Origin: Occallatibacter sp.
GTDB taxonomy: Bacteria > Acidobacteriota > Terriglobia > Terriglobales > Acidobacteriaceae
Direction: 5' to 3'
Length of the DNA: 34,818 nt
Assembly: GCA_017883405.1 (NCBI GenBank)
Contig: JADGNO010000171.1
Coordinates: forward strand, 1 to 34,818
Shown here: positions 26,856 to 32,623 of the stretch, in pieces
Position numbering within the stretch: position 1 is the first letter of the stretch
Layout: the number at the start of each line of letters is the position of its first letter
Made by a program: the position numbers and the translations under genes
Notes under the pieces: generated by a model
The model's input: only the letters and a program-made list of their open reading frames with translations
Database searches by the model: none
Told to the model about the DNA's origin: nothing

Positions 26856-27569
26856 ATGGGCAATGGAAATTTATTTCCGCGGGGTCCAATGCCGCCCGGC
26901 GGATTGATGCTGAGCATCGACACCTGCGGCCCGTCGGGTTCGGTAGCTCTGGGCCGGCTCGCTGGGCGGGACCTGGAGATTCTCGGCGAAACGGAGCTTG
27001 CCGGGAGGTCCTACTCCGCCGTGCTCGTGTCCGCCGTGAGTGAATTGTTGGCGGGCAACGAAGTCGGACTTAAGGACCTGGGCGGGATCGTCGCCGTGAA
27101 TGGCCCCGGAAGCTTTACGGGTGTGCGCGTTGGGCTCAGCGCAGTCAAAGGTCTTGCCGAGGGCTTGCAGATTCCGGTTGTTGCTCTTTCGCGACTGCTT
27201 GTGCTTTCGAGAAAGGCGGGCGTTCCTTCGTGCGCACTGGATGCGCATCGGGACGAGGTATTTTTGCGGGTTGAAGAGATGGGTCAGCAGGCGAAAGAGT
27301 TGCTGGCTGGGGCGCGCGAGCTTGCTGCTCAGCCGGCTCCGTTACGAGTTGCTGTTTGCGACGACTCCGCTGCTGTTCTGCTGCAGGCCGCGTGGCCTTC
27401 GACTCAAATGGTTCGATGTGCGGCGCCGTTGGCAAGCGATGCGCTGCGGTTGGGTGAATCGCGGCTGATCGCGGGCATCTACGACGATCTCGCGCTGCTT
27501 GACGGACATTACCTGCGGCGATCGGATGCGGAAATTTTTGGCGAGGCGGCCGCCGCAAAACGCTTATGA
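26856..27569 (+). CDS. tsaB: tRNA t6A biosynthesis protein TsaB
   Basis: MLSIDTCGPSGSVALG...GIVAVNGPGSFTGVRVGLSAVKGLAEGLQIPVVALSRL. Confidence 0.93.
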   Translation: MGNGNLFPRGPMPPGGLMLSIDTCGPSGSVALGRLAGRDLEILGETELAGRSYSAVLVSAVSELLAGNEVGLKDLGGIVAVNGPGSFTGVRVGLSAVKGLAEGLQIPVVALSRLLVLSRKAGVPSCALDAHRDEVFLRVEEMGQQAKELLAGARELAAQPAPLRVAVCDDSAAVLLQAAWPSTQMVRCAAPLASDALRLGESRLIAGIYDDLALLDGHYLRRSDAEIFGEAAAAKRL

Positions 27570-28042
27570 GTGCCAATTCTGCTGCATTCTTCACGGTTCG
27601 CAAGATGGTTGCCGCGGACATCGGCCCGACGATGGCGCTTGCGTCAACTCTGAAAGACGCGCCACATTGGCCGCAATCGGTCTATGATGCCGCGCTCGAT
27701 CCGAGTTCAACGCCGCGCCGCATTGCAATTGTGGCTGTGAACGAAGTGAGCGAGATTGCCGGGTTTGCGATTGCCAGTTTGCTTCCGCCTCAGGCCGAAC
27801 TCGAGTCGATTGGGGTCCGGGCAAATTTTCAGCGGCAGGGAATCGGCACAAAGCTGCTGTCCCATCTGATCGACGAACTCAAGGCTGCAGCGGTGAGCGA
27901 AATCCTGCTGGAAGTGCGCACTTCGAACCACACCGGAAATGCCTTTTACCTGGTACATGGTTTCAGGCAGATCGGACTTCGCCCGCGCTACTACACTGAA
28001 CCCGAAGACGATGCGATTCTGATGAGCGTGACTCTGGGCTGA
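27566..28042 (+). CDS. rimI: GNAT acetyltransferase, RimI-like
   Basis: LESIGVRANFQRQGIGTKLLSHLIDELKAAAVSEILLEVRTSNHTGNAFYLVHGFRQIGLRPRYYTEPEDDAILM; ATGA overlap with tsaB. Confidence 0.93.
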   Translation: MSANSAAFFTVRKMVAADIGPTMALASTLKDAPHWPQSVYDAALDPSSTPRRIAIVAVNEVSEIAGFAIASLLPPQAELESIGVRANFQRQGIGTKLLSHLIDELKAAAVSEILLEVRTSNHTGNAFYLVHGFRQIGLRPRYYTEPEDDAILMSVTLG

Positions 28043-28112: not shown

Positions 28113-28232
28113 CATGATGCGTTCAAATTACGAAATTCACAGGATTCGACATATTTTGGCGATTTACCCCCTTGCGATTTGCCATTTGACGGCGATATAT
28201 GTAAGTGTTCCTTAAATACTCGGAGGTGCTTG

Positions 28233-28442
28233 ATGGATGAAGTACAGGATGCCACGCTGAGCGCAGAGATTGATCGTCTGCATGCCGAACATCGTCGTTA
28301 CGCTCAGCGGTTGGAAGAATTGCTTCAAAAGCCATATTTAAGTGAAGATGAACAGCTCGAGGAAGTTCGCCTGAAGAAGCTGAAGCTTCATGCGAAGGAC
28401 CTGATATTTGCGCTCGAACGCAGGGCGCCTGCAGTAGCATAA
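28233..28442 (+). CDS. YdcH/DUF465-like small coiled-coil protein
   Basis: MDEVQDATLSAEIDRLHAEHRRYAQRLEELLQKPYLSEDEQLEEVRLKKLKLHAKDLI; strong RBS GGAGGT at 28222-28227. The ORF-track start at 28077 runs through the regulatory region and is unlikely. Confidence 0.85.
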   Translation: MDEVQDATLSAEIDRLHAEHRRYAQRLEELLQKPYLSEDEQLEEVRLKKLKLHAKDLIFALERRAPAVA

Positions 28443-28595: not shown

Positions 28596-29306
28596 ATGGT
28601 TCGAGATGGTTATATTTACGGTTTGAGCCTTGTGGCCGTGGCTGCGGTGCTTGTATGGGCCACGGGAGCCAGAGCATGGGCAACGGTCCCCCTGCTGCTT
28701 GCATTTTTCTTTTTGTGGTTTTTCCGCGATCCCGAACGGCTGATTCCCGCCGGTAACGGTTTGATTGTGTCGCCGGGCGATGGCCTGGTTACCGAAACAG
28801 CAAGAATCGATACGCCTGCCGGCCCTCGGCAGCGGATCAGCATATTTCTCAGCGTTTTCGACGTCCATGTAAACCGCTCCCCGATTGGCGGTGTGCTCAG
28901 CCGTGTGGAATATCAAAAGGGTTTATATCTGAACGCGATGAACCCGGCGTCGGCAGAACGCAACGAACAGAATATGGTGACGGTGCGCGGAGACGGTTAC
29001 GAAGTGACATTCAAGCAGATTGCCGGCCTGCTTGCCCGCCGCATTGTTTTCAATTTCAAAGAAGGCGACGTGGTGCAGCGCGGCCAGCGCGTGGGGCTCA
29101 TCAAGTTCGGCTCGCGGGTGGATGTCCTTATCCCAGCCCACGCGGCAGTGCGGGTTAAGGTGGGCGAGCGCGTCAAGGGCGGGTTCAGCGTGCTGGCGGC
29201 AATGCCTGAAGCGGTGACGATGGTCGTGGAGCCAGCGGCCACAGTGTCTCTGGGCGCGGCGGTCGGCGCGCCGGTACCGGAACTGCCCGGGGGAGTTCGC
29301 GCTTGA
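28596..29306 (+). CDS. psd: Phosphatidylserine decarboxylase proenzyme
   Basis: [43 protein letters not shown], and FGSRVD at the expected GS self-cleavage site. Confidence 0.95.
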
Positions 29307-30232
29307 ATTTCAATCACTCCTTCAACGATCCAGCGCGAGCCGAGGTTCGGCGCGCACGCTTGCATCGTGGAATGTTCCTGCTGCCTTCGTTCTTTACTTC
29401 AATCAACATCGGCGCCGGCTACTGGTCGATCACGCAGACGATTGAGGCAATCAGCGGCAACGCGCAGTTGCATCTTGATCTGGCGGCGATCGGCATCTTG
29501 TTTGCGATTCCTTTTGACGCCCTCGACGGGCGCATTGCCCGCATGACCAACACGTGCAGCGATTTTGGTAAGGAGCTGGATTCGCTGGCCGACGTGATTA
29601 CGTTTGGCGTGGCGCCGAGCCTGCTGGCGTTTGTGTGGGGATTCCACTTTCTGCCCGATTCAATCAATACGGAATTGCGGCAGCACGTTATGCAGGCCGG
29701 TGCGTTTGTCTGCTTCCTGTTCCTGTTGAGCGGAGCATCGCGCCTGGCGCGGTTCAACATTTCGCATGACGCGCAGCCGCGCAATCCGGGCCGTCCGGGG
29801 CGCAAATATTTTGTCGGTATGCCGATTCCTGCAGCCGCAGGACTACTGGCATCGAGCGTGCATCTTTGCTACGGCATTCCAAACCAGTACTGGTGGATCG
29901 CCGTCTCGTGGATGATTCTGGTTGGCCTTACCGGCTTCCTGATGGTGAGCACGTGGCGCTTCTGGTCTGGTAAAGAGATCAACTTTTCCAAGAGCCATCC
30001 CTTCCAAATCCTGGTGCTGATTGCCATCTTTATGTATGTGACGATCCGTTATTCCAACTTTGTGCTTTTTGCCATGGCTCTGACGTACATGTTTTCGGGC
30101 ATATGGGCGGGGGCGGCGTATTCGTGGTCGCGCCGGCGGCGCATAAGGCCGGTTGGAGCCACGCCAGATGCGTCCGACACCGACGCAGGGGATGTGGATC
30201 TGGACAAGCGGGACTCAATCAGATTCCTCTAA
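29303..30232 (+). CDS. pssA: CDP-diacylglycerol--serine O-phosphatidyltransferase
   Basis: [39 protein letters not shown] matches the CDP-alcohol phosphotransferase motif; TM segments. TTG start overlaps the psd stop. Confidence 0.95.
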
Positions 30233-30257: not shown

Positions 30258-31289
30258 ATGTTTGTGTACAAGATAGCAATTGCCGGAGCCTCTACGCTCC
30301 TTGGGCGTGAGTTGAAAGACGTGATATCGGAGTCGCCGCTGGCAGCGGCCAGATTCGCGCTGCTTGATGAGGAAGATGCGCGCGGCCAGCTTGACCAGGT
30401 CGGAGACGAGGTCACGATCATCCAGGGGTTCGGCCCCGATGCATTTGAGCGCGTGGATTTTACTTTTCTTTGCGGCTCTGAGGCGCTTACGCGCATGTAT
30501 TGGAGCCAGGCACTGCGCTCTGGTTCAACGGTTCTGGATTTGAGTGGAGCGCTGGACCAGGAAGCGGGAGTGCTGGTGCGCGCGCCGTGGCTGGGTTCTG
30601 AAGCAGCGGCTGCGGATTTGTTTACGCCTGCCGTGGTGCCTGCGCATCCCGCAGCCGTTACTCTGGGTTTGCTGCTGGAGCGCGTGCAGCAGGCGGCGCC
30701 GGTTCGCGTTGCGGGAGCTACGGTGATGTTGCCCGCCAGCGAGTTTGGACGCGGCGCAATGGACGAACTGCACCAGCAAACGGTGAGCCTGTTGAGTTTT
30801 CAAAGTTTGCCGCGCGCCATTTTCGACGCACAGGCGGCCTACAACTTGCTGGGCGGCCTGGGCGAGAGCACAACCATAGGGCTGGCGGGTGCGGAGGCGC
30901 GCATTCGCCGCCATTATGATTCACTCTCCGCCGGACGCTGGCCAAAGCTGGCAATGCAGGTTGTACTGGCTCCGGTGTTCCACGGGCTCACGTTTTCAAT
31001 TCTTGTGGAGCTGGAACGGCCGGTTGAAATCTCCGCGCTTGAAGAGGCGCTGAGCGGAGAGCACGTTGACCTGGTGCTTGAAGACACGGATTCGCCGTCG
31101 AATCTGGCTGCAACAGGGCAGAACGATGTGCTCGTGCGTCTGCGCCCGGAGCAGACGGGCCGCAATCCCAATCAGACTTCGCGCGTGTGGTTGTGGGCAG
31201 CTGCGGACAATCTGCGCTTGCACGCGCAGAATGCGATTGATTGTGCGATGGATTTACGCAAGCTAAGGCCGAAGGGGACTGTGCAGTAG
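30258..31289 (+). CDS. Aspartate-semialdehyde dehydrogenase-like protein lacking the expected catalytic Cys
   Basis: IAGASTLLGRELKDVI Rossmann motif, FGRGAMDELHQQTVSLL, LAPVFHGLTFSILVELERPVEI; expected NPNC-T catalytic motif reads VVPAHPAAVTLGLLL. Confidence 0.82.
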   Translation: MFVYKIAIAGASTLLGRELKDVISESPLAAARFALLDEEDARGQLDQVGDEVTIIQGFGPDAFERVDFTFLCGSEALTRMYWSQALRSGSTVLDLSGALDQEAGVLVRAPWLGSEAAAADLFTPAVVPAHPAAVTLGLLLERVQQAAPVRVAGATVMLPASEFGRGAMDELHQQTVSLLSFQSLPRAIFDAQAAYNLLGGLGESTTIGLAGAEARIRRHYDSLSAGRWPKLAMQVVLAPVFHGLTFSILVELERPVEISALEEALSGEHVDLVLEDTDSPSNLAATGQNDVLVRLRPEQTGRNPNQTSRVWLWAAADNLRLHAQNAIDCAMDLRKLRPKGTVQ

Positions 31290-31427: not shown

Positions 31428-31543
31428 GGAATGTATTGCTACTCGTAATTGCGATGCATTACATTGGCTACGTCCGAAAAAAGCCAAGTTCATCTCACCC
31501 CAAAACGACTTCAAAATTTCGACTTGCCAGGGAGAACTTCATC

Positions 31544-32623
31544 ATGCGCCACCTCGTTGCCGTCGTGTTTCTCGGCTCATTAGTAACCGCTTCCATTGCC
31601 CAGCAGGCCACTCCTCCGCAGACACCTCGGCCCGCGCCCGCCCCCCTGCAGGTCCCAAATCCCCACTACGTCACTATTGAACTCAGTCAGGATGTAGACG
31701 CTCCCGCTGACACTACCTGGGCGCGTGTCGGCAAGTTCTGCGACATCGGTGAATGGGCATTCCCTGATTGCAAGCTCATCCAGGGCGACGGCGGCTTCGC
31801 CTCTGAGCGCACAATCGTTAACGAAATCCTTGTCGGCAAAACGGAGCATAGCTACACCTATGCGCAGCCTGTCCGAAAGGAAGGGAAGTACAACCTGTAC
31901 CACGGGACGCTTGAAGTGCAGCCAGTCACGTCGAAGACCTCGCGCCTTGTCTACACCTTTTTTTACGACAACAGCATGCTGGCTGACGACGCCGCTCGTG
32001 ATGCGGAGATTGCAGTTCGTAAAAAGCGCTTTACCAACTATCTCGCCAACATGAAAAAAATTGTCGAGGGTGGCAAGGTTGCAGACTCCGACAAGTCGGC
32101 TATGCCGAATGCTCCCAAACCGGACGACCTGCAAACTCCAGATTCCCACTACGTGTCGGTACCCATGAAAGTCGTGGTGAATGCGCCTATTGACGCTGTC
32201 TGGGCCCGCATCGGCAAGTACTGCGATATCGGCGAGTGGGGTATTCCCAACTGCACAATCCTCTCAGGTGATGGCAGCAGTCTGGGCACAGTCCGCAGCA
32301 TTGGAAACGAGGTGCTCGTAGCCAAAACCAGGTACAGCTACCTTTACACTCAGCCAGTCCGCGAAGGCGTCCGCTACAGCATGTACCATGGCACCCTTGA
32401 AGCCGTGCCCCTCACCGACAAAACCACCCAACTCAACTACACGCTCGTCTACGACAACAGCAATCTCGCGGATGACGCAGCCCGCCAGAAAGATATGGAC
32501 AGCCGCCGGGCTCGCTTCACGAAGATGCTGGAGAACATGAAAGTCCTCTCGGAGGGAGGGGCGCTGCCAGTCGGCGCTCTTGGCGGTGGCGGCGCACCCC
32601 GGCCTGCTAGTACTCCACAGTAG
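31544..32623 (+). CDS. Exported protein with two tandem SRPBCC-like domains
   Basis: Signal peptide MRHLVAVVFLGSLVTASIAQQ; two homologous halves with (F/Y)CDIGEW..P(D/N)C and (N)YLYHGTLE-type motifs. RBS GGGAGA; ATG 31544. Confidence 0.8.
   Translation: MRHLVAVVFLGSLVTASIAQQATPPQTPRPAPAPLQVPNPHYVTIELSQDVDAPADTTWARVGKFCDIGEWAFPDCKLIQGDGGFASERTIVNEILVGKTEHSYTYAQPVRKEGKYNLYHGTLEVQPVTSKTSRLVYTFFYDNSMLADDAARDAEIAVRKKRFTNYLANMKKIVEGGKVADSDKSAMPNAPKPDDLQTPDSHYVSVPMKVVVNAPIDAVWARIGKYCDIGEWGIPNCTILSGDGSSLGTVRSIGNEVLVAKTRYSYLYTQPVREGVRYSMYHGTLEAVPLTDKTTQLNYTLVYDNSNLADDAARQKDMDSRRARFTKMLENMKVLSEGGALPVGALGGGGAPRPASTPQ

Follow-up and report, generated by a model that had tools for sequence, protein, structure and literature searches.

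The closest known counterparts of the protein described here are two Cys-less proteins, P. aeruginosa PA3116 and E. coli Usg. PA3116, the type of a group of USG-1 homologs covered by the model PRK05671, has the fold of aspartate-semialdehyde dehydrogenase (ASADH) but no Cys in the nucleophile column. The structure 2hjs, whose PDB record names only a P. aeruginosa Usg-1 homolog, is taken by us to be PA3116. Usg of E. coli and Salmonella is likewise a Cys-less ASADH paralog and shares an operon with housekeeping genes unrelated to it (pdxB-usg-truA-dedA). The Salmonella usg operon has been tied to intracellular survival and to oxidative-stress resistance (PMC6358828), which argues that Cys-less paralogs can matter physiologically. 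Our literature searches (PA3116, pseudoenzyme ASADH, and psd-pssA together with Asd) did not find a description of the family reported below.

The family member studied here, which we call ASDL (Cys-less ASADH-like protein), is encoded in a contig of Occallatibacter sp. that was analysed over its whole stretch of 34,818 nucleotides ("the window"). Comparison with named loci sets the window within the Acidobacteriaceae, close to Terracidiphilus and Occallatibacter. The ASDL open reading frame (30258-31289, forward strand) encodes 343 residues when read from ATG 30258. The GTG codon at 30264 seems the more likely start (30264..31289), because the frame of the relatives opens with GTG-TAC about 5 nt past an AAGGA-like site and because the conservation of the protein begins there. 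The genes upstream are on the same strand: tsaB and rimI (26856..28042), a gene for a small DUF465 protein (28200..28442), psd for phosphatidylserine decarboxylase (28596..29306) and pssA for CDP-diacylglycerol-serine O-phosphatidyltransferase (29303..30232). psd and pssA overlap by 4 bases, and ASDL follows pssA after 31 bp, or after 25 bp if counted from the ATG, which is the spacing given in the first-pass annotation of this DNA. We note that many Acidobacteriota keep the gene of the small DUF465 protein at this place, after rimI and before psd. Further downstream, between ASDL and dgt, the window has an open reading frame with two tandem SRPBCC (Polyketide_cyc2) domains (31436-32623, forward strand) that was not detected in the compared loci of the genus.

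Fold, family and relation to Usg and PA3116

ASDL matches the Pfam domains Semialdhyde_dh (PF01118) and Semialdhyde_dhC (PF02774) with 32.0 and 47.2 bits, respectively, i.e. above the gathering score of 26 bits that applies to each; the second match bears out the ASADH-like C-terminal domain that had been seen in the first reading. The AlphaFold model (pTM 0.81, mean pLDDT 79, with low confidence in the dimerisation segment 162-206) has its top PDB fold matches in 2hjs (TM 0.77) and in V. cholerae ASADH II (2qz9; TM 0.75-0.77 for the two), and the sequence search returned the same two entries as the closest solved relatives. The assignment to the ASADH fold is thus firm. None of the more specific models reaches its cut-off: ASDL scores 61.0 bits against TIGR01296 (Asd; cut-off 324), 63.2 against PRK08040 (cut-off 273) and 21.1 against TIGR01850 (ArgC; cut-off 233.6). 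ArgC has the same Pfam domain pair, the 21-bit match to it covers the N-terminal part only, and a separate ArgC is encoded in the genome. Asd shares with ASDL the two-domain fold and structural residues such as D94, E170, N196 and D317, whereas its catalytic and substrate residues (Cys, Gln, Arg, Lys and His) and its NADP-binding residues are lost in ASDL.

The best NCBIfam model is PRK05671 with 131.8 bits (73.7 for Asd), and all 16 members of a broad alignment (A1) match it. Together with the fold and sequence match to 2hjs, this suggests that ASDL may belong to the Usg/PA3116 family, descend from one ancient Cys-less ancestor and have the same role as Usg. Such a descent would be compatible with a non-catalytic ASDL, and we give it a little less than even odds. 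The likeness extends to single positions: many ASDLs share with Usg and PA3116 a Gln in place of the substrate Arg at column 237 (QAPVF), and DLSG stands for DNTS as in PA3116. A clade of ASDL, PA3116 and E. coli Usg, when forced on the tree, was not rejected with the small reference set used (p-AU 0.51). On the other hand, the PRK05671 score is far under the cut-off of 284, and the free tree, built with the same few reference sequences, sets the ASDLs on a long, fully supported branch apart from Asd and Usg, with E. coli Usg placed beside V. cholerae Asd. PA3116 is only about 25% identical to ASDL and does not share its His-Pro pair in place of Asn-Cys or its FH motif; ASDL, moreover, lies with psd-pssA. 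E. coli Usg, also at 25% identity, differs further in that it retains the catalytic His, the GATGAVG motif and other Asd columns, and its neighbours are truA and pdxB; no truA linkage was found in the Acidobacteriota loci that were searched. In other words, the comparison with Usg drawn in the first-pass annotation is apt as to the kind of protein, i.e. a Cys-less ASADH paralog, while the trees neither support nor contradict a simple orthology to E. coli Usg.

Lost residues and a conserved cleft

The roles of the ASADH columns as nucleophile, acid/base, substrate contacts and NADP contacts are well established. The segment VVPAHPAAVTL of ASDL aligns on ASADH NPNCST, and its core P-A-H130-P131-A (30639..30653) stands where ASADH has NPNCS: the Asn has become H130 (CAT, 30645-30647) and the catalytic Cys has become P131 (CCC, 30648-30650). 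LPASEFGR (30729..30752) replaces QxxSGAGK, with the catalytic Gln changed to Leu158, and LAPVFHGL (30966..30989) replaces RVPVFYGH, with the substrate Arg changed to Leu237 and the catalytic His to Leu244. A further Arg, invariant like these residues in ten Cys-bearing Asd sequences, is D100. Across 50 diverse ASDLs, all seven columns that are invariant in the ten Asd sequences (R100, N130, C131, Q158, K215, R237 and H244) are replaced or variable. The absence of the active-site Cys, noted before in the single sequence, is general: none of 150 ASDL copies has Cys at column 131 (Pro in 129, Ser in 9, Ala in 8, Gly in 3). The 150 include near-duplicates from one family; the 142 of them that follow pssA represent about 29 family-level groups. 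By comparison, NPNCS is present in all five Cys-bearing Asd met by the same searches. No shifted Cys was found in the cleft motifs of the ASDLs either. The suggestion that the protein binds a different acyl substrate is without support, since Pro in place of Cys rules out thioacyl chemistry at this position.

The cofactor site has changed as well. The Rossmann glycine motif is degenerate (GASTLLGREL, 30285..30314, for ASADH GATGAVG): its middle Gly is Thr in the window copy and Ser or Thr in 44 of the 50 diverse relatives. Among the same 50 sequences the loop Arg (column 40) has mostly given way to Glu or Asp, and the SAGG (72-75) and PEVN columns are not conserved. To judge from these alignments, the NADP-binding residues are eroded in addition to the catalytic and substrate ones. 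The Rossmann motif had been described as intact, which is right for the domain and not fully so for the glycine motif. Similarly, the site where GH was expected had been read as HGLTFS; the former His column is indeed Leu in the window copy, yet it is His in 96 of the 150 relatives, and the His of FHG is a separate residue, H242.

Despite these losses the gene is maintained. ASDL was found in 35 of the 36 genomes of the genus at 66-78% identity to the window copy. Measured against relatives, its dN/dS comes to about 0.1 (some 0.06-0.2; the ratios are approximate as synonymous sites are near saturation), and psd and pssA are in the same range. ASDL is thus under purifying selection. A pseudogene or a chance reading frame is ruled out by the presence in the genus, the open frames and this ratio. 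Moreover, the ASDLs have conserved positions of their own, namely H130 (117 of 150), P131 (129), P159 (144), F241 (148), H242 (137) and W311; ASADH has other residues in place of H130, P159 and H242. These positions argue that the cleft has changed its use and was not simply relaxed.

The conserved cleft brings us to the main rival of a non-catalytic reading, i.e. that ASDL is a neofunctionalised enzyme. H130 and H242, together with S161 or Q174, would form the basis of its new active site, and the enzyme would act, for example as a hydrolase, lyase or isomerase, on a small metabolite of the aspartate or serine family that feeds PssA. The conservation of H130, P159, F241 and H242 speaks for this, as it indicates a separate selection on the cleft. 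Homoserine derives from aspartate semialdehyde. E. coli PssA also accepts homoserine, an aspartate-derived product (PMC12221286), so that a metabolic link between ASDL and PssA is conceivable. However, the two residues that replace Asn and Cys vary more than is usual for a catalytic pair: about 30 of the 150 copies carry N, D, Q, G or A at column 130, and about 20 carry S, A or G at column 131. An invariant acid/base triad is missing from the ASDLs, and the neighbouring genes suggest no chemistry. On balance we regard a new enzyme as unlikely.

The pssA-ASDL neighbourhood across the Acidobacteriota

Of 197 Acidobacteriota genomes searched with a profile, 118 had matches, roughly 80 of them strong; the weak ones are cross-hits to Asd or ArgC. 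The psd-pssA-ASDL order, a check of which had been proposed, is conserved phylum-wide: pssA lies immediately upstream in 142 of 150 ASDL loci, two others are at a contig edge, and six are arranged otherwise. The 142 pssA-adjacent copies span about 29 family-level groups, and the adjacency is kept at as little as 22-30% ASDL identity. Upstream, tsaB-rimI-DUF465 is often kept in the Acidobacteriota loci. The downstream side varies, with lptE-holA in other families of the Terriglobia, lolCE-lolD elsewhere and msbA-yicC-gmk in another clade.

Six loci (L106, L107, L108, L112, L113 and L118) have ASDL directly before the gene of an msbA-type lipid A exporter, followed by yicC-gmk-coaBC, without psd-pssA. 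Several loci of this msbA-linked clade have a glycosyltransferase gene upstream, and msbA itself was undetected in L106. Relatives of the clade (L114, L133 and L139) show the order psd-pssA-ASDL-msbA, from which about five members of the clade have lost psd-pssA as neighbours while retaining msbA. We also note that several lineages encode, between ASDL and lolCE, a protein of about 275 residues without a Pfam match (e.g. L120, 6309-7133, and L111, 5071-5907).

At least 40% of the sampled Acidobacteriota genomes are without an ASDL match, and several of them keep psd-pssA, so the synthesis of phosphatidylethanolamine (PE) does not need ASDL. One locus of the same class (L254; G050:C63) reads psd-pssA-lptE, with lptE directly after pssA and ASDL precisely absent, an arrangement that suggests a clean loss of the gene. 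ASDL is an optional but persistent companion of genes for PE synthesis and outer-membrane assembly.

A linkage of this kind could be a mere relic of an older operon order, with ASDL having a housekeeping role unrelated to phospholipids. The order psd-pssA-leu-asd-truA, which occurs in other phyla, would be a candidate source, but neither leu nor truA was found beside psd-pssA in the Acidobacteriota loci searched, with or without ASDL. More generally, tsaB-rimI-DUF465, which are not lipid genes, are conserved upstream too, and in one clade ASDL has a place apart from psd-pssA, both of which fit a relic. Against it, the pssA-ASDL adjacency has outlasted neighbour change on both sides in about 29 family-level groups, the neighbours that come in are repeatedly outer-membrane genes (lptE, lolCE-lolD, msbA), and genomes without ASDL keep psd-pssA. 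We therefore find a mere relic rather improbable.

A probably non-catalytic companion of envelope synthesis

Three PF02774 proteins are encoded in the genome: ASDL, a canonical Asd with NPNCST directly before lysC, and an ArgC beside arginine genes. Nine other genomes of the genus that were checked also have three each, and the lysC-adjacent Asd has an ortholog in all nine. The search for a bona fide asd elsewhere in the genome was thus positive, ASDL is not the only Asd, and with a canonical Asd and an ArgC in place it is not the Asd of the cell. This working Asd of the genome (L001, 437-1522; G000:C79) is itself divergent: although it has NPNCST and precedes lysC, it differs in type from the lysC-adjacent Asd of G053 and G079, which is bacterial-type. 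That ASDL is nevertheless the organism's Asd with its nucleophile moved elsewhere, or else a pseudogene in decay, is very improbable indeed, since only the name of the matching annotation models favours it, against the Asd beside lysC with its orthologs, the lack of a conserved cleft Cys, the open frames and the low dN/dS.

The best explanation is that ASDL is an ancient Cys-less ASADH paralog which stands third in a psd-pssA(-ASDL) operon and has been kept across the Acidobacteriota. Because the fold is kept, the catalytic and substrate residues are gone and the NADP-binding residues eroded, while selection and the linkage to pssA are retained, we favour the reading that it is a non-catalytic pseudoenzyme of the ASADH fold with an accessory or regulatory part in PE and envelope synthesis (probability about 0.5). 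Put simply, the protein is probably no longer an enzyme and has been retained for some non-catalytic task in building the envelope. The loss of the catalytic and substrate residues, the real Asd elsewhere and the phylum-wide linkage all lend strong support to the earlier view of a non-catalytic or repurposed paralog next to psd-pssA; the regulatory role that this view allowed for is plausible. As a pseudoenzyme ASDL would form a dimer like ASADH, and a putative ligand or partner may now be bound in the old active-site cleft and at the dimer surface by the newly conserved residues H130-P131, P159, F241-H242 and W311. It could then modulate or scaffold PE synthesis by PssA and Psd without redox catalysis, and may help to match PE synthesis to outer-membrane assembly. 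More speculatively, and doubtful in this specific form, ASDL might sense a metabolite of the aspartate or serine family or a lipid intermediate and control PssA or Psd, so coupling amino-acid status to the building of the outer membrane as a third component of the PE operon throughout the Acidobacteriota.

ASDL represents a Cys-less variant, found phylum-wide, of a known fold family; its function is probably envelope-related. Automatic annotation likely names such proteins aspartate-semialdehyde dehydrogenase, because the matching models carry that name, and the Asd label would misstate the function in every Acidobacteriota genome that bears ASDL. Should the psd-pssA linkage prove functional, it would indicate that phosphatidylethanolamine and envelope synthesis have a control point, so far unstudied, in a major soil phylum, and it would offer a way into the role of the Usg-type Cys-less ASADH paralogs.
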